Of a stretch of DNA of 36,151 bases, positions 819 through 35,920 are shown in pieces (the stretch's first letter is position 1; every line of letters starts with the position of its first letter). The stretch lies in NCBI GenBank assembly GCA_017853315.1, contig JAFMJW010000011.1:1-36151 (forward strand), in the 5' to 3' direction. Under the pieces are notes generated by a model. The model worked only from the letters and a program-made list of their open reading frames with translations. It was not told the origin of the DNA and did not search any database. A program made the position numbers and the translations under genes. The stretch comes from Alphaproteobacteria bacterium. Its GTDB lineage: Bacteria; Desulfobacterota; Binatia; UBA12015.

Positions 819-1769
819 TTACTGCACCTTCGCCCGCGAGCTGAAGCCGAACTGGCCGATGGCCTGGCCGACGAGCGCGAAGAGGTACCCGTCGGAGGCC
901 TCCTTCGGCCACATCGACAGGATGCCCGAGCTGTTGATCGTCACGTAGTCCGGGATGAGCGGCTGCTTGCCCGCGCTCGCGATCGAGTTGAACTCCACGC
1001 AGCCCACCGACACGTCGGGCAGCGAGGTCTGGATCTCGAGGTTGTCGTGGTGGGTGAGCCAGAACTCCTCGCCCGCGTCCGACGGAACGGCGAGGCCGTT
1101 CTTGTCGATCGTCAGCCACGAGGTGATCACGAGGCTGCCGTACTCGATGCCCGGAGGAGGCGTCGGGTTGATGGTCTGGAGGACGTAGCGCGTCACGTCG
1201 CCCGAGGGCAGCTGCACCTGGTTGTTCACCGAGAACAGGCCCAGGGCGTCGTTGCCGAACGAGTAGCCGTAGGTCAGGTCGGCGATGGTGAAGGTGCCGA
1301 CGAGAGCGCCCTGCGCGAGCCGGCGTCCCGTGTTGTCCCACGAGCCGCAGTTCGAGTCGGTCTGGTAGGCGGTCACGGTCACGATGCCGCGCTGGCCCGA
1401 GAGATTCACGGTCGGGCCGGTCTTCTCGTTGTTCGGGCCGATGGCCGTCATGTTCGTCGGGTCGACGACGACGGTGTCGTTCGTGGTGAGGCAGATCGAC
1501 AGGTCGGCGAGCTCCTGGCAGTCCGCACCCCAGAACGTCCAGTGGGTCGTCACTGCGGCGAGCGAACCCGACGACGCGTAGGGATTGCTCACGAGCAGGT
1601 ACGACGCGCGGTTGTAGCTGTTGTCGAACGGCATCACGAGCTCGGTCGCGGGCTGCGTCAGCGACGAGTTGTCGTCCGCCAAGCCCATCTGGGCCGAAGC
1701 CGTGCCGGCAAGGCCGAGGCTCAGCATTCCCGCCGCCAGAAGCGACGCAAAGATTCTCCCCTCTCTCAC
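819..1769 (-). CDS. secreted protein of unknown family, 316 aa
   Basis: I do not recognise a named family. The product has a Sec signal peptide (residues 1-26, ending SLGLAGTASA before Gln) and a mature part rich in Thr, Val, Asn and aromatic residues with regular alternation, suggesting a beta-sandwich. There are few cysteines (CQELADLSIC, SNCGSW, VGCVEF) and no C-terminal membrane anchor or sorting signal. The GTG start at 1769 is supported by AAAGGAG eight bases upstream, and the gene ends in a strong terminator, so it is probably a single-gene transcript. It may be a periplasmic, surface or released protein. Confidence 0.8.
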   Translation of the reverse strand: MREGRIFASLLAAGMLSLGLAGTASAQMGLADDNSSLTQPATELVMPFDNSYNRASYLLVSNPYASSGSLAAVTTHWTFWGADCQELADLSICLTTNDTVVVDPTNMTAIGPNNEKTGPTVNLSGQRGIVTVTAYQTDSNCGSWDNTGRRLAQGALVGTFTIADLTYGYSFGNDALGLFSVNNQVQLPSGDVTRYVLQTINPTPPPGIEYGSLVITSWLTIDKNGLAVPSDAGEEFWLTHHDNLEIQTSLPDVSVGCVEFNSIASAGKQPLIPDYVTINSSGILSMWPKEASDGYLFALVGQAIGQFGFSSRAKVQ

Positions 1770-2127
1770 GATCCTGACTCCTTTCTCACCGCCGGCGCCT
1801 GGCCGACGGAAACGCCACCAGAGGTCGCCCGGAAGTCGCCTCGATCACGTGTCTCGTACGTCACCGAGAGAACCTCGCGGCTCCCCTTTTACCTTCCCTC
1901 GGTCGACTCCCCCCTCCGAACGGTGACCCCGGAAACGTATCCCCGGGGTCGGGACGGGGCCCGACCACCACCATCCACGTGTCTTCGCCTAACAAGATCG
2001 GCCGGACCTGACAACAACTGTAGCCGGCCATGCCGCGATGCGGCCGAGCACTCCCGGGATCTCCCCGGGCCGAGGTGACGGACGGGCGGGCCGCCCGGTT
2101 TCTTACAGGCCAGGCTCCGGACGCCGG
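1770..2127. other. 358-base intergenic region
   Basis: This lies between the start of the secreted-protein gene and the stop of the sigma-54 activator, both on the minus strand. I see no convincing gene. A weak minus-strand promoter candidate (TTGTTG, 17-base spacer, TGTTAG, about 2020-1981) could serve the secreted-protein gene, but the match is poor. No sigma-54-type GG/GC box pair was found by eye. Confidence 0.4.
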
Positions 2128-3393
<1,266 letters not shown>

Positions 3394-3510
3394 CGTCCCC
3401 ATCCTCCCCGTCGGCGCCTCCCGTCCGGGCCGCGCTCGACGCTCCGATGGGGCAGGAAGCAAGGAGGACGCCATAGTCCACGCCGGGTCGGCCCGGTCGG
3501 AAAAACGTCC

Positions 3511-3523
3511 GTCCTGTCAGGAC
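3511..3523. promoter_or_regulatory. perfect inverted repeat upstream of the sigma-54 activator (possible operator)
   Basis: GTCCTGTCAGGAC is a 5-bp perfect inverted repeat with a 3-base centre. It lies in the roughly 300-base divergent region between the activator gene (minus) and the PhaR-like regulator (plus). Position and symmetry suit a dimeric DNA-binding protein, possibly either neighbour. This rests on symmetry alone. Confidence 0.35.
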
Positions 3524-3691
3524 TTTGTCCCCCCGGCGGGTCGGGGACGCGCGTGGCCCGAATGGGGGTCGGGCCAACTTCGTACGTTCAATTCCGCACG
3601 GGCGTTCAGTCTTGAACGGCCCGAGCGGGGCTTCGACGCGGCGCAGAAAGACGCGTTGCCGGGCTGGGGGGAGGGTGCTAGCGACCTCCGG

Positions 3692-4273
3692 ATGCCGCGG
3701 GTCGTCAAGCGCTACTCCAATCGCAAACTCTACGACACGACCACGAGTCGTTACGTCGCGCTCGACGACATCGCCGCCATGGTGCGCCGCGGCGAAGAGG
3801 TCGAGGTGACGGACAACGAGACCGGCGCCGACCTGACGGCCGTCACGCTGGCCCAGATCATCCTGGAGGACGAGCGTCGCCGCTCGGGGGTGCTCTCGCT
3901 CTCGCTTCTGCGCGACCTCGTGCGCAACGGCGGGACCACCCTCGCGGACGCGACCGCTCGCGGCCTCGAGACGCTCGGCGAGATCCGGGAGGCGGCCGGC
4001 CGCCGGGTCGCCGAGATCGTGAACGAGTCGCCGGTCGGGCCCGCGATCGACGAGGTGCTCGCCGGCTCCCGCCGCCGCATCGACGATCTCCAGAAGCGCA
4101 TCGACAGCGGCATCAAGACCTCGCTCGACACGTTGCGCAATCACCCCTCGATCGGCCCCGAACTCGAGCGGGTCGAGGGGGGCCTGCGCGAGATCGAGGC
4201 GCGCCTGAAGACCCTCGTCTCCGACGCGAAGGACGGCAAGGGCGGCGACGACTCGGCGCGTCGCAATTCCTGA
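3692..4273 (+). CDS. PhaR-type polyhydroxyalkanoate synthesis regulator (DNA-binding domain protein)
   Basis: Residues 2-60 match the PHB/PHA accumulation regulator DNA-binding domain: RVVKRYSNRKLYDTTTSRYV, then LDDIAAMVRRGEEVEVTDNE and DLTAVTLAQIILEDE. In known PhaR proteins this domain represses phasin genes and also senses polymer granules. The remaining 130 residues are Arg/Glu-rich and probably coiled-coil (DEVLAGSRRRIDDLQKRID), not the usual PhaR C-terminal repeat, so target and ligand may differ. ATG 3692 is chosen because the family begins within a few residues of it; no good Shine-Dalgarno is present. No PHA synthase or phasin gene is in the window. Confidence 0.85.
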   Translation: MPRVVKRYSNRKLYDTTTSRYVALDDIAAMVRRGEEVEVTDNETGADLTAVTLAQIILEDERRRSGVLSLSLLRDLVRNGGTTLADATARGLETLGEIREAAGRRVAEIVNESPVGPAIDEVLAGSRRRIDDLQKRIDSGIKTSLDTLRNHPSIGPELERVEGGLREIEARLKTLVSDAKDGKGGDDSARRNS

Positions 4274-4322
4274 GTCCGGGCGATCCGCCCCGGCACCGGC
4301 TGTCTCTCGGCCGATCCCGGGC

Positions 4323-4342
4323 ACCCGGGGAAGCCCGGGTTT
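4323..4342 (+). terminator. candidate terminator hairpin between convergent genes
   Basis: ACCCGGG, loop GAAG, CCCGGGT, then TT. It sits 50 bases past the PhaR-like stop and a few bases before the end of the convergent universal stress gene. The U-run is short, so termination could be weak. Confidence 0.4.
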
Positions 4343-4348
4343 GCGTGC

Positions 4349-5185
4349 TCAGCGGTGAAGCAGGACCGGGCAGGCGACGTTGCGCAGCACGTACTCGGTC
4401 GTGCTGCCGAGCACGAGCTCGAGGATGCGCCCGTGCCCGTGCGACCCCATGAACACGAGGTCGTGCCCGCGCGACTTCACCTCGGCGGGGATCTGCTCGG
4501 CGGCGTGGCCCTCGACGATCACCGTCTCCAGCCGGAGCTTGTAGGGGTCGAGGTAGCGGCGGGCCTCCGCGAGCGTCCGCTCGCCCAGGTCCCGGTCGCG
4601 CTCGACCGTCATGACCTCGAGCGGCAGGTCGAGCTTCGAACACAGCTCGCCGGCGAAGTGCATCGCGAGGCTCGCCCGCTCGCTGCCGTCGTAGGCGAGC
4701 AGCGGCGAGCGGATCTCGGCGAACTCGATCGGCGTGACCAGCACCGGCTCGTTGCACTGGCGCGTCACGCTCTCGGCGACGCCGCCGAGCAGGCCGGTCG
4801 AGAACTTCTGGTTGGTCCCGCGGTGTCCGATGACGACCAGGTCGGCCTCGCGCGCGCGCTCGCAGATCTCCGAGGGGATGATGCCGAACTGGAGCGCCGT
4901 GTCCGAGCGGACGCCTTCCTTCGCGCACGAGGCGGTGAATTCCTCGAGGACGATCTTCCCGCGCTCGGCGAGCGCCTCGCGCACCTTCGAGGTGAAGTCG
5001 AGGTAGGGCTCGAAGCCGAGCGAGCCCGAGATGTCGTGGAAGAACGGGCCCTCGACCGAGACGATGTCGACGACGTGGAGGCCCACGACCCTCGCGTCGA
5101 GTCGCTTGGCGAACCACTGCGCGTAGCGGACGGCGGTGCGGCCGTGCTCGGATCCGTCGACGCCGACGAGGATGTTCTTGATCAT
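4349..5185 (-). CDS. universal stress protein, two tandem Usp domains, 278 aa
   Basis: Two Usp alpha/beta domains are joined head to tail. The first begins at residue 3 (KNILVGVDGSEHGRTAVRYA) and ends at ITPIE. The second starts near PLLAYDGSERASLAM and ends with the ATP-binding motif GSHGHGRILELVLGSTTEYV and CPVLLHR. The first domain keeps a shorter form (VVIGHRGTNQKFSTGLLGGV). Such proteins bind ATP and support survival under starvation, oxidative or respiratory stress, often as dimers; the tandem form mimics a dimer. ATG 5185 has AGGGAG six bases upstream. It is transcribed divergently from 5294 and probably alone. Confidence 0.92.
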   Translation of the reverse strand: MIKNILVGVDGSEHGRTAVRYAQWFAKRLDARVVGLHVVDIVSVEGPFFHDISGSLGFEPYLDFTSKVREALAERGKIVLEEFTASCAKEGVRSDTALQFGIIPSEICERAREADLVVIGHRGTNQKFSTGLLGGVAESVTRQCNEPVLVTPIEFAEIRSPLLAYDGSERASLAMHFAGELCSKLDLPLEVMTVERDRDLGERTLAEARRYLDPYKLRLETVIVEGHAAEQIPAEVKSRGHDLVFMGSHGHGRILELVLGSTTEYVLRNVACPVLLHR

Positions 5186-30603: not shown

Positions 30604-31215
30604 TCAGCTGCCCCGGGCCTTCGCCTCGGACCGCTCCTGCCAGCGTCGCACGATCGACGGCAGGACCATCATGAAGACGAGCATGCCGCCCACCGTCCAG
30701 CGCTCGTCGCCCAGCACGTCGTTCAGCCAGAGCGTCGAGACCATCAGCACCGCGAAGTAGAACATGTCGCCGGTGATGGCGATCGCCCATCCCGGGAGGA
30801 AGCCGTGCCCCGCGGCGTGCGCGGCCGCGCGGCCCGTCATCGGGTCGACGCCGAAGGCGATCAGGATGAGCGCGAGCGGTCCGCCCCTGGTCCCGTAGCG
30901 CGCGGTCGTCTGGCGGATCACCTGGCGGATCGCGGCCGAGACCCGGCCGAGCAGCGGGATCGAGCGTCCCGCGAGCAGCACGAACCGGAGGATCGGCTCG
31001 AAGGTGCACGCGAGGATCACGTCCGACACGAAGTAGAGCGCCATCATCGCCGGCCAGGCGATGCCGCGGTCCCGCGCGAGCAGGACCCCGGCCGGGATGC
31101 CGCCCCCGATCGGGACGAGGAAGAGCAGGAGCACCCCCGAGGCCCCGGCGGGCCAGCCGTGGGGGATCGGGGCGGTCGGGTCGAGCAGGGCTCGCTGGAG
31201 CTCGTCGGGGTTCAT
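30604..31215 (-). CDS. integral membrane protein of unknown function, 203 aa
   Basis: About four to five hydrophobic helices: SGVLLLFLVPIGGGIPAGVLL, WPAMMALYFVSDVILACTF, GPLALILIAFGVDPM, WAIAITGDMFYFAVLMVSTLWL and GGMLVFMMVLPSIV. The short cytosolic loop is basic (RQVIRQTTARYGTRG) and the C-terminus charged (RRWQERSEAKARG). The layout recalls small multidrug-export-like or DedA-like proteins but I cannot assign it. ATG 31215 is preferred; a start at 31299 would add 28 Ser/Pro-rich residues into the divergent promoter region. Confidence 0.72.
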   Translation of the reverse strand: MNPDELQRALLDPTAPIPHGWPAGASGVLLLFLVPIGGGIPAGVLLARDRGIAWPAMMALYFVSDVILACTFEPILRFVLLAGRSIPLLGRVSAAIRQVIRQTTARYGTRGGPLALILIAFGVDPMTGRAAAHAAGHGFLPGWAIAITGDMFYFAVLMVSTLWLNDVLGDERWTVGGMLVFMMVLPSIVRRWQERSEAKARGS

Positions 31216-31245: not shown

Positions 31246-31349
31246 TGCCGATCCTACAGGGCTCGAAGAGGGCCCGCGACCGGACGGGCGAGAGGGCAAC
31301 CGTTGGCTGCGGCGTCTGTTTCAACGGGTCAGCCGAAAGGAGCCGATCG

Positions 31350-31784
31350 ATGGAAGTCTCGAAGATCCTCCGCGCGGGTGCGCTCGCGGCCGCCTTGCTC
31401 TCCGCCGTCGCGGTTCCCTGCCCCGCGCGGGCCGGGGACTCCTGCCGTCCGAACGTGTTCGGCGGCGAGGACTGCCGCTCGAGCGACGGCAAGCAAAGCT
31501 GGAGCTCGCGACCGAACGTGTTCGGCGGCCGCGACACCACCTACTCGGACGGCACCCGCACGACGTCTCGGCCGAACGTGTTCGGCGGCGAGAACGTCGA
31601 GGGGCCTCGCGGCCAGATCTCCTCGAGCCGCCCCAACGTGTTCGGCGGCCGGGACTACACGCTGCCGAACGGCAAGAGCGCGAGCTCGCGACCCAACGTC
31701 TTCGGCGGGCAGGACTACCGGGGGCCCGGCGGGCACACGGTCACCTGCCGCCCGAACGTGTTCGGCGGCCAGGACTGCAACTAG
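31350..31784 (+). CDS. secreted RPNVFGG-repeat protein, 144 aa
   Basis: A signal peptide (residues 1-28, ending PARA) is followed by six units starting RPNVFGG at residues 33, 54, 74, 94, 114 and 134, so the period is 20 residues after a first one of 21. Each full unit reads RPNVFGGx(D/N) followed by a Gly-containing turn 14 residues in (SDG, SDG, PRG, PNG, PGG) and Ser/Thr. The first and last units are bracketed by cysteines: CRPNVFGGEDC and CRPNVFGGQDC. Likely a repetitive beta-hairpin or beta-solenoid in the periplasm or on the surface. AAAGGAG lies seven bases before ATG 31350. Function unknown. Confidence 0.85.
   Translation: MEVSKILRAGALAAALLSAVAVPCPARAGDSCRPNVFGGEDCRSSDGKQSWSSRPNVFGGRDTTYSDGTRTTSRPNVFGGENVEGPRGQISSSRPNVFGGRDYTLPNGKSASSRPNVFGGQDYRGPGGHTVTCRPNVFGGQDCN
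31446..31781 (+). repeat. six tandem 60-base coding repeats (RPNVFGG units)
   Basis: A core of about 20 bases, cgnCCGAACGTGTTCGGCGG, recurs every 60 bases (first interval 63). Spacers between differ in sequence but keep the reading frame and the Gly turn. Near-identity of the cores at third positions suggests recent expansion or gene conversion. Confidence 0.85.
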
Positions 31785-32654: not shown

Positions 32655-33875
32655 CTACTTCTTGCGTCCGCTCTTGCGAGTCGGTCCGGAAGGCTTCTCC
32701 CGCTCCGAGTCCTTCGGCTTCTTCGACTTCTCGCCGGGCGACGCCGCGGCGAGCTTGCCGACCTTGCCGACCTTGCCGGCCTTCGGCTTGCGCGCCTTCT
32801 CGCCGCGCTTCTCCGATTCGGACTTCTTCGCCTCGTCCTTCTTCTTCGACTTCTTCGCGGGCTTCGTGGACCTGGCGTCGGAGGCGCGCTTCTTCTTCCC
32901 TTTCGCGGAATCCTCTCCCGTCGCGAAAAGCCGCTCTCCCGCGAGCGGCGCGATCGAGGCGCCGCCGAACGCGCGTCGTGCGCGCGCGGACTCGAAGGTG
33001 CTGCGCGCGGCATCGAGCGCTGCCGCGATGCGGTCGCGAGTGCCGGGTCGCGGGACGGACTCCGGCTCGATCGACTCGAAACGCCCGCGGTCCGGAGCCG
33101 GCGCGAGCGAGCCGCGGGAGCGGAAGGCTTCGCCGAAGCTGTTCGCGGAGGTGCCCGCACGAGTGCCGGGAGCTTCGGCCCGGCTGCCTTCCCCGCGCTC
33201 GCCCTCCGCGGCGGGGATCGCCGGTGGCGCCGAGTCGAGGCCGTCGGGTGCCGCGACCGCGGTCGCCGGGCGGGGTGCAATCTCTCTCTCGCCCGCGCTC
33301 GTCGGCGCGAGGCTCTCTTCCTTGGCGGCTTCGAGCTCCGGCTCCTCGTCGACCTCGAAGGCGTCGTCGATCTCGACGTCTTCCCCGTCGTCGCCGGCCC
33401 CGACCCCGTTCTCGGCCTCGTCCGAATCCTCTTCTTCCTCTTCCGCCGCGAAGTCGTCGTCGCCGAGGCCTTCGTCCTCCGAGTCCTCGTCGTCCGCGAA
33501 CTCCTCGTCCGACACGGAGTCTGCCTCGACCTCCTCGAGGTCCTCTTCGGAGAGCCCGTCGGCCAGCGGCCGGTCGTCCCCGGCACGCTCGGTCTCGCGG
33601 GCGGCCTCGGGCCAGCTCGGTTGCCCGGGCGCTGCGCCGGTGCGTCCGACGAAGGAGTCCGCGGCACTGCGCGCGGCGGCAGACGCCCGGAAGCGCTCGA
33701 AGGGATCGACGGCGTCTTCGCCCGGGTCCGCCCAGGACGCGGCCTCGGGATCCCCCGAGGCGTCGAGACCCGCGTCGATCAGGCCGACCAGGCCTTCCAC
33801 CACGTCGGCGGCGCCGCGCAGCACGCGCGCCGCGATCCGCCCTCCCCAGGCGAACACACCCATGATGACCGCCAT
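32655..33875 (-). CDS. disordered protein with acidic middle and Lys-rich tail, 406 aa
   Basis: Three regions. The first 35 residues are an amphipathic/hydrophobic helix (MAVIMGVFAWGGRIAARVLR, ADVVEGLVGLIDAGL). Residues about 110-190 are a dense acidic block (EEDLEEVEADSVSDEEFADD, AAEEEEEDSDEAE). The last 80 residues are Lys/Ser/Ala-rich like histone H1 or AlgP tails (KGKKKRASDARSTKPAKKSK, KPKAGKVGKVGKLAAAS). In between lie Pro/Arg stretches and a short helical patch (RIAAALDAARSTFESARARR). No enzymatic domain. GGAGGA nine bases before ATG 33875 fixes the start. It could bind membrane or a granule by its N-terminus and nucleic acid or polyphosphate by its tail; both ideas are inference. Confidence 0.75.
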   Translation of the reverse strand: MAVIMGVFAWGGRIAARVLRGAADVVEGLVGLIDAGLDASGDPEAASWADPGEDAVDPFERFRASAAARSAADSFVGRTGAAPGQPSWPEAARETERAGDDRPLADGLSEEDLEEVEADSVSDEEFADDEDSEDEGLGDDDFAAEEEEEDSDEAENGVGAGDDGEDVEIDDAFEVDEEPELEAAKEESLAPTSAGEREIAPRPATAVAAPDGLDSAPPAIPAAEGERGEGSRAEAPGTRAGTSANSFGEAFRSRGSLAPAPDRGRFESIEPESVPRPGTRDRIAAALDAARSTFESARARRAFGGASIAPLAGERLFATGEDSAKGKKKRASDARSTKPAKKSKKKDEAKKSESEKRGEKARKPKAGKVGKVGKLAAASPGEKSKKPKDSEREKPSGPTRKSGRKK

Positions 33876-33994
33876 CTCGTCCGTTCCTCCAGGCAAGACC
33901 GGGAAGTTACCCGCACCCCGGCGGTCCCGCCAGCCGCGGGTGGCCGCGGAGACGGCACCTTCCGCGGCCTCGGGCGGCGGCGTACAAACCGATC

Positions 33995-35920
33995 GTGAGG
34001 CCGAGGGAGACGGTGGGCCGAGCGGCCCGGCTACCTGCTGCGGGGCGTCCCGCCTCGAGCCGGGCGTCGCGGTTCGTGCGCCGTCGCTTCGCCGTGATCG
34101 CCGCGGCGATCGCCCTCGCCGTGGCGGGGCCGGCTCGGGCCGCGTGGACCGACCTGCCCGTCGCCCGGCCGTTCGGCTCGCACCCGATGACCTACGCCGC
34201 AGGGTCGATCCGGCCGAGCCACGTCTCGCAGCCGGCGCTCGACCAGGCGGTGCGCGATTCTTGGGACGAGTGGAGGGCCGAGTACGTGGCGGAGGCCTGC
34301 GGGGCGGGTCGGTTCGTCGTGCTCGCGGGCGCCGGCAGCGGCAACCTCACGGTCTCCGAGGCGCACGGCTACGGCATGATGCTCGCAGCCCTCATGGCGG
34401 GCCACGATCCCGACGCGCAGGCGATCTTCGACGGCATGTTCGCCTTCTACCGCGAGCACCCGTCGAGCCTGACGCCGGGGCTCATGGCCTGGAACCAGTC
34501 CCGCTCCTGCCAGGACGCGCAGGGTTCCGACTCCGCCTCCGACGGCGACCTCGACATCGCCTTCGCGCTGCTGCTCGCCGACCGCCAGTGGGGCAGCTGC
34601 GGGGTCGTCGACTACCGAGAGGCCGCGAACACGATCATCGCCGCGATCCGCTCGGGCGACCTCGACCCGTCGGGCCGCATCGTGAAGCTCGGCGACTGGG
34701 TCGGGAACGACGGCAGCGCCTTCGCGACCGCGACACGCACCTCGGATTTCATGCCGGATCACGCGCGCGCCTTCGGCGCCGCGACCTCGGATGCTTCGTG
34801 GTCCGACCTCGTCGAGCACACCTGGGACGTCGTGGACGCGCTGCAGTCCGGCTCGAGCCCCGCGACCGGGCTCCTGCCCGACTTCGTCGTGAACGCGCTC
34901 TCGTCGCCTTCGCCCGCGCCCGCCGGATTCCTCGAGGGCGCGAACGATGGCGCCTACGACTACAATGCCTGCCGCGACCCCTGGCGGCTCGCGACCGACT
35001 GGATCGTGAACGGAGAGCCCCGCGCCCGCACCGCGGTCGGCCGGATCGAGACGTGGATCCGGGGCGCGACCGGCGGCGACCCGTCGAAGATCCGCAGCGG
35101 CTACCGGCTCTCCGGCACGCCGAGCGCGAACAGCGACTACCTCTCGATGGCCTTCGTCGCGCCGATCGGCGCCGGCGCGACCGTGGACGCGGCCCACCAG
35201 GGGTGGCTGAACGACGTCTGGGACCTCGTCGTCGCGACGCCGCTCGCCGACGGCGGCTACTACGAGAACACGCTCGAGCTGCTCTCGATGATCGTGATGT
35301 CGGGCAACTGGTGGTCGCCCGAGAAGGTGTCCGCGCCTTCGTGCACGCCGCCCGCGACCGCGCTCTGCACGGCCGGCGGCTCGGTCTTCGGTGCCCGCGT
35401 CGACGTGGCCGGGCTCGGCCGCACGCCCGGCGCGCAGTCGATCAAGCTCGATGGCACGCTCGCGTGGCCGCAGGGACGCCCCGACGGTCACCCGCTCGAC
35501 GGCGGGGCGCAGGTCCTCGTCGAAGATCTCGGGCCGGGCGGCTCGTCGCTGCTCGAGCTCACGGCGGCGACGCACCCGGTTCCCGGGTCGTCGACGGCCG
35601 CGTGCAACCCGCGCAAGGATCGCTGGAAGGTCTCGGGGCCGAAGGCGCTCTACGTGAACGGCTCGGGCGCGATCGACCCGCCGTCCTGCACGGCCGGCAG
35701 CGCGAGCGGGCTCTCCAAGCTCCAGTACAAGCAGCTCTGGAACGGCGACGTCTCCGTGCAGCTGCAGACCAAGAAGCAGGCGCTCGCGGGGCCGGTGGTC
35801 GGGCCGCTGCGGGTGACGCTCGTGCTCGGGCCGGGAGCATCGGCCGGCGCGGACGGCGCCTGCGCCGTCTCGGCGTCGCTCGCCTGCCGGCCGGTCGGCA
35901 GCAAGCTGCGCTGCGAGTGA
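33995..35920 (+). CDS. exported GH8-family glycoside hydrolase with C-terminal module, 641 aa
   Basis: A family-8 glycosidase (endoglucanase/chitosanase type). A Tat- or Sec-like signal occupies residues 25-49 (RFVRRRFAVIAAAIALAVAG, ARA). The inverting (alpha/alpha)6 barrel shows the acid Glu in SEAHGYGMMLAAL, WNQ, and the Asp motif SASDGDLDIAFALLLADRQW, then YDYNACRDPWRLATDWIVNG. After residue 445 comes a Cys-containing linker and a 170-residue beta-rich module (SIKLDGTLAWPQG, SGLSKLQYKQLWNGDVSVQL). It should cut beta-1,4-glucan or chitosan outside the cell. No cellulose synthase genes are nearby. GTG 33995 has no good ribosome site; GTG 34076 just before the signal (VRRRFAV) is an alternative. 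Confidence 0.9.
   Translation: MRPRETVGRAARLPAAGRPASSRASRFVRRRFAVIAAAIALAVAGPARAAWTDLPVARPFGSHPMTYAAGSIRPSHVSQPALDQAVRDSWDEWRAEYVAEACGAGRFVVLAGAGSGNLTVSEAHGYGMMLAALMAGHDPDAQAIFDGMFAFYREHPSSLTPGLMAWNQSRSCQDAQGSDSASDGDLDIAFALLLADRQWGSCGVVDYREAANTIIAAIRSGDLDPSGRIVKLGDWVGNDGSAFATATRTSDFMPDHARAFGAATSDASWSDLVEHTWDVVDALQSGSSPATGLLPDFVVNALSSPSPAPAGFLEGANDGAYDYNACRDPWRLATDWIVNGEPRARTAVGRIETWIRGATGGDPSKIRSGYRLSGTPSANSDYLSMAFVAPIGAGATVDAAHQGWLNDVWDLVVATPLADGGYYENTLELLSMIVMSGNWWSPEKVSAPSCTPPATALCTAGGSVFGARVDVAGLGRTPGAQSIKLDGTLAWPQGRPDGHPLDGGAQVLVEDLGPGGSSLLELTAATHPVPGSSTAACNPRKDRWKVSGPKALYVNGSGAIDPPSCTAGSASGLSKLQYKQLWNGDVSVQLQTKKQALAGPVVGPLRVTLVLGPGASAGADGACAVSASLACRPVGSKLRCE

Follow-up and report, generated by a model that had tools for sequence, protein, structure and literature searches.

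The stretch of DNA analyzed here, 36,151 nucleotides in all and called the window below, carries a gene for an exported protein that contains six units built on the heptapeptide RPNVFGG (Table 1). The units are 21, 20, 20, 20, 20, and 11 residues long, and their cores start 21, 20, 20, 20, and 20 residues apart, in agreement with a preliminary description of the locus that had noted six repeats with an almost perfect 20-residue period. The same description placed a Gly turn 14 residues into each unit; we found this second turn as SDG, RG, NG, or GG, with the Gly at residue 15 in every full unit. Its third claim on the layout, that Cys pairs flank only the first and last repeats, was also borne out: two CX9C pairs, C32/C42 and C133/C143, lie in the first and last units and in no other, and the fifth Cys of the protein, C24, lies within the signal peptide. 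The mature protein (about 116 residues, about 12 kDa, pI about 8.9, GRAVY about -1.07) contains a single Trp and is hydrophilic, with very low hydrophobicity and a composition rich in Gly, Ser, Asn, and Pro. The hydropathy of the signal peptide reaches a maximum of 2.0 over 15 residues, and in related proteins, too, the leader closes with A-x-A or A-x-G, which places this site two or three residues ahead of the first Cys. Secretion, as proposed earlier, is thus supported at the level of the export signal, by the AxA leader and by the leaders of relatives that end just before the first Cys.

Table 1. Features of the repeat gene and its surroundings in the window.
Feature	Position	Strand	Remarks
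Left neighbor gene	30604-31215	-	Divergent from the repeat gene; 84% identity in G001, the same-genus relative; no Pfam match
Upstream stretch GGCAACCGTTGGCNNNGGCGTCTGTTTCA	31295..31323	+	29 bases, nearly identical in G001; possible promoter or 5' leader
Ribosome-binding site AAAGGAG	31336..31342	+	7 nt 5' of the ATG; read from sequence
Exported repeat protein gene	31350..31784	+	144 aa; ATG start; stop codon within the coordinates; based on homologs and codon-position pattern
Signal peptide, residues 1-28	31350..31433	+	AxA site PARA/GDSC; based on sequence, hydropathy, and relatives
First hairpin with proposed staple, C32-RPNVFGGED-C42	31443..31475	+	
Core 1, RPNVFGG	31446..31466	+	Read from sequence
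Core 2, RPNVFGG	31509..31529	+	Read from sequence
Core 3, RPNVFGG	31569..31589	+	Read from sequence
Core 4, RPNVFGG	31629..31649	+	Read from sequence
Core 5, RPNVFGG	31689..31709	+	Read from sequence
Last hairpin with proposed staple, C133-RPNVFGGQD-C143	31746..31778	+	
Core 6, RPNVFGG	31749..31769	+	Read from sequence
Right neighbor ORF, ~240 aa	ends 32590	+	No Pfam match
Next gene on the right	32655-33896	-	Partial match in G001
GH8 glycosidase	33995-35920		Right of the 32655-33896 gene

The repeat gene is single-copy in the source genome (3.98 Mb, 398 contigs searched). No sigma-70 site was found in the stretch upstream of it, and this stretch is itself single-copy in the genome, so that no regulon can be read from it. 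The gene order is common to the genus only, and no conserved neighbor or operon partner was found outside the genus; the neighborhood therefore gives no hint of a partner.

The ORF is a real gene under protein-level purifying selection. The six cores in the window are all distinct as DNA and encode one heptapeptide, and all 31 of the base differences found among them in pairwise comparison fall at codon position 3. Between the window and its same-genus relative, the 42 core codons differ by 19 synonymous and no amino-acid changes, whereas the 74 linker codons differ by 27 amino-acid and 17 synonymous changes. These results uphold the earlier claim that the core motif is under selection. The statement that the DNA cores are nearly identical was also correct, but the confinement of the differences to position 3 indicates that the constraint acts on the peptide and not on the DNA. 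ORFs in the antisense and other frames over the gene were set aside as shadows of the repeat, since the codon-position pattern supports the frame that starts at 31350.

Relatives were sought in genomes, plasmids, and viral contigs. The same layout was present in a metagenome-assembled genome (MAG) of the same genus (G001/L015, eight units), in two further genera of the same family (G003 and G008/L016), in another family of the same class (G050), and in Pseudomonas-type genomes and a plasmid (L021, L029, L036, and L045). It was also seen in a MAG titled Gemmatimonadetes (L017), which we set apart because its start codon and signal peptide are unconfirmed, although the repeat units and Cys pairs are present. 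We define the family by a signal peptide, about six 20-residue units of the form [SC][RS]xNxxGGxD[TYC]...G, and a Cys pair in the first unit; this definition covers the window protein, G001 (with eight units), G003, G008, G050, L036, L045, L029, and L021. The last of these, WP_024767793.1, a 'hypothetical protein' encoded by plasmid pPniHBP1_1 of Pseudomonas nitroreducens, shares with the window protein the signal peptide, six 20-residue units, the first-unit Cys pair, and 42% identity, but differs from it in having NIKGG instead of NVFGG turns, no C-terminal Cys pair, and an added C-terminal tail. In the Pseudomonas-type proteins generally, the position of the turn Phe is occupied by Phe, Asn, or Lys, fairly uniformly within each protein (for example NVNGG or NIKGG). 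The family was found in at least 6 of 148 genomes of the class, at least 2 of 395 in a phylum sample, at least 1 of 399 in a phylum sample around G479, and at least 2 of 249 in one family; all of these are lower bounds, as the first look scored a limited number of candidates. The family is rare, patchy, and widely scattered among bacteria. One database record of the same-genus relative, CAMBZJ010000007.1 (L015), is titled Klebsiella pneumoniae; its contig is G001:C7, which shows about 80-90% protein identity to the window in synteny, so that the title probably belongs to a mislabeled MAG.

Sequence searches against Pfam, NCBIfam, PHROGs, PADLOC, and the PDB gave no credible match; a CSN7 match at 3.9e-6, obtained with one of seven members only, was taken as chance. 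The RPNVFGG motif could thus be assigned to no described repeat family in Pfam, NCBIfam, PADLOC, or the PDB. Among the seven members, no profile match was obtained to RHS_repeat (Rhs/YD), to MORN or MORN_2, or, with E-values up to 10, to Tcp10_C (the CPAP TCP10/G-box domain), and the PDB sequence search gave one chance hit and no match to the CPAP TCP10/G-box domain family. Profiles of curlin (CsgA/CsgB) and of choline or cell-wall-binding repeats (CW_binding_1) were likewise without a match. We found no paper with the motif RPNVFGG; the shorter NVFGG occurred in a single paper, on plants and unrelated. The family is new to Pfam and NCBIfam, and its members are annotated only as 'hypothetical protein'.

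Copy number, which had been proposed for checking, varies little: of ten proteins, representing three lineages, nine have six units and one (G001) has eight. Units 4-7 of this eight-unit relative are near-identical, so that it seems to have gained two units recently. Among five window-type proteins, 78% of comparisons matched the linker of a given unit best to that of the same unit in another protein, against 20% by chance and at most 41% in 2000 shuffles, and in the same test with nine proteins the value was 45% (chance 20%, shuffle maximum 29%). Because units hold their positional identity between species, the six-unit array is old and not a recent expansion.

We then aligned the cross-strand positions 0 (before the R) and +10 in 62 hairpins from the ten proteins. 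Sixteen hairpins had Cys at both positions, 46 had no Cys, and none had a single Cys. This perfect covariation strongly, if indirectly, supports a disulfide inside the hairpin, and we regard its formation as probable. The pairs without Cys were mostly Ser-Thr (27) or Ser-Tyr (11), and the adjacent cross-strand pair was Arg-Asp (the R of RPN and the D of GGxD) in 46 of the 62. The Pseudomonas-type relatives have the N-terminal Cys pair only and often lack the turn Phe, indicating that neither the second staple nor the Phe is essential to the family. The suggestion that the structure is capped fits the Cys pairs at both ends of the window protein and their covariation, but holds only for the N-terminal end in the Pseudomonas-type proteins. 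Several ice-binding proteins typically combine a flat repetitive beta-sheet with Ser/Thr ladders and disulfides. Ser-Thr as the commonest cross-strand pair would be in keeping with a protein that is soluble and surface-active, for instance a sheet that binds ice or minerals through regular Ser/Thr arrays on a flat face; however, no T-x-T regularity runs across the units, the linkers vary while the turn core alone is constant, and the relatives belong to soil, lake, and Pseudomonas genomes. We consider this alternative very unlikely.

AlphaFold2, with an input alignment of five sequences for the window protein, predicted 12 regular short strands with block-mean pLDDT values of 80-92 over the units (about 90), and 16 strands in the same rhythm for the eight-unit relative. 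The predicted strands pair through the NVFGG turn within a hairpin and through the second Gly turn between hairpins. Structure prediction, another of the proposed checks, thus returned ordered and not disordered models for both the six-unit and the eight-unit protein. The very low hydrophobicity and plentiful Gly, Ser, and Pro would also be expected of a largely disordered exported peptide with two isolated disulfide loops, serving for example in metal or wall binding, but the high model confidence across all units in two separate predictions, the positional identity of the linkers, and the covariation of cross-strand positions make such a peptide very unlikely.

When the six-unit model was compared with the PDB by Foldseek, the TCP10/G-box domain of CPAP ranked first (E 4.5e-3); the eight-unit model matched Rhs shells (2.3e-4), the CPAP G-box (6.0e-4), and then the single-layer sheets of OspA/PSAM. 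These fold matches are weak to modest. Their TM-scores are low (0.2-0.4), which is what sheets that are long, thin, and twisted and differ in curvature should give. The predictions point to a free-standing single-layer antiparallel sheet of hairpins as the probable fold, and we infer its openness from the same models: eight units give 16 strands with unchanged rhythm, and a sheet that is open and can be extended should behave in this way. Of the earlier wording 'beta-solenoid or hairpin stack', the hairpin repeat is retained and the solenoid is not, since the predicted strands and the nearest folds correspond to an antiparallel meander in a single sheet.

In the CPAP TCP domain, ~20 strands meander through PDG hairpin turns to form a free-standing single layer that has no hydrophobic core; the domain is monomeric with both faces exposed, and aromatic residues along one of its edges bind a proline-rich peptide (PMC3776556). 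CPAP/SAS-4 TCP10 (PDB 4bxp, 4by2, and 4ld1), the best or near-best fold match, resembles the predicted fold of the window protein in its single-layer antiparallel hairpin sheet, its often PDG hairpin turns, and its Gly/Pro-rich repeats, but it is a domain of a larger, eukaryotic centriole protein, has no Cys staples, and shows no sequence match. The proline-rich motif bound at the edge by this domain family is PRxxPxP. The central sheet of OspA and engineered OspA/PSAM proteins are likewise single layers with both faces exposed, extendable by added hairpins and without a sequence match; there, globular domains hold both ends (PMC3776556), whereas the window protein would be capped by the proposed disulfide-stapled hairpins. 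Strips of ~20-residue hairpins with Gly turns are found also in the Rhs/YD-repeat shells (8qja, 7q97) and in teneurins, which rank high among the fold matches; those, however, are large shells of 1000 or more residues compared with ~116 in the mature window protein. A small relative of such shells, or another closed beta structure (a small barrel, a ring, or a six-hairpin propeller), could account for the rank of the Rhs cores and for the constancy of six units in nine of ten proteins. We regard it as unlikely, given the eight-unit relative with its same predicted strand rhythm, fold matches that are pieces of a large sheet, and the absence of a conserved cargo gene nearby and of an RHS_repeat Pfam match.

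Taken together, these data favor, at about even strength, a model in which the protein is exported, stands free as a sheet of hairpins whose ends are stapled by disulfides, and may serve as a multivalent binding scaffold. The protein would be exported by the Sec pathway and oxidized outside the cytoplasm. Its mature part would consist of six beta-hairpins and nothing else, each unit contributing two short antiparallel strands with the NVFGG turn between them and being joined to the next by another Gly turn, such as SDG or PNG, so that the chain would form one open, twisted, single-layer sheet without a hydrophobic core, similar to CPAP TCP10. Interior hairpins would be held by the cross-strand Arg-Asp and Ser-Thr/Tyr pairs; in the first and last hairpins, Cys-Cys would replace Ser-Thr/Tyr, and oxidation would staple ends that would otherwise fray or stick to others. 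By analogy, the Cys staples may be an answer to the sheet-end problem that globular domains solve in OspA-type sheets. One long edge of the sheet would present the identical NVFGG turn once per hairpin at regular spacing, and with a Phe in each hairpin this edge could act as a multivalent binding edge, as the aromatic edge of CPAP does. Binding by this edge or by one face, with a polymer or an extended or proline-rich peptide as partner, is a speculative part of the model and rather unlikely as specified. The uniformity of Phe, Asn, or Lys within each Pseudomonas-type protein would fit a different repeating partner.

The sheet edges, free at both ends in the model, raise the question of self-assembly. 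Exported hairpin repeats rich in Gly, Ser, and Asn and of hydrophilic character could associate edge to edge outside the cell and build a fiber or a biofilm matrix, as curli and other functional amyloids do, and the TCP sheet has been likened to amyloid sheets (PMC3776556). Nevertheless, the TCP domain itself is monomeric (PMC3776556), the terminal hairpins bear Cys pairs instead of being left free, and the unit number is conserved. No Pfam match to curlin or another fiber protein was obtained, the scanned neighbors include no fiber secretion family, and no neighbor is conserved beyond the genus. We regard a fiber subunit as unlikely.

The proposed free-standing sheet would represent a structurally known but rare kind, the single-layer sheet, which few natural proteins are known to have, in a new exported and apparently disulfide-stapled form. 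The full proposal is that these proteins make up a rare bacterial family, so far undescribed, whose mature members consist entirely of such a sheet with disulfide-stapled terminal hairpins; it is put forward tentatively, at somewhat less than even likelihood. If true, the architecture that was reported in 2013 to be unique to the CPAP TCP domain would have another natural example, and a very small one. It would also offer a natural test bed for beta-sheet stability without a hydrophobic core and for the ways in which free sheet ends avoid fraying and aggregation, with staples at the ends and Arg-Asp and Ser-Thr pairs inside. The natural variants (six or eight units, one or two staples, and F, N, or K turns) make these rules directly testable, and naming the family would allow its annotation in further genomes.

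Several associations with mobile elements and other genes were noted among the relatives. A phage origin was rejected, as no convincing relative appeared among phage records; the sole relative on a viral contig, L045, is located where the contig ends, and a gene that by eye resembles a CI-like repressor lies a few genes away. In G050 (L040:2610-5489) the repeat gene directly follows IS21 istA/istB (PF22483, PF01695), and L022:803-1171 follows an apparent IS21 remnant. The idea of an IS21 passenger was dismissed, because this proximity was not seen for the other members and is possibly due to chance. Two Bacilli MAGs encode distant repeat relatives without a signal peptide (L018:4974-5384 and L020:4998-5414, with the repeat PNVFGGENxYxxNGxxIGST), and 220 sampled genomes of that phylum yielded no further copy. 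Both genes lie directly 3' of genes for Dynamin_N/LeoA-like GTPases; in L020 the repeat gene lies between two dynamin genes and overlaps the end of the first, and in L018 a 1292-aa protein (1075-4953) has both a Dynamin_N GTPase domain and a region of right-handed beta-helix.
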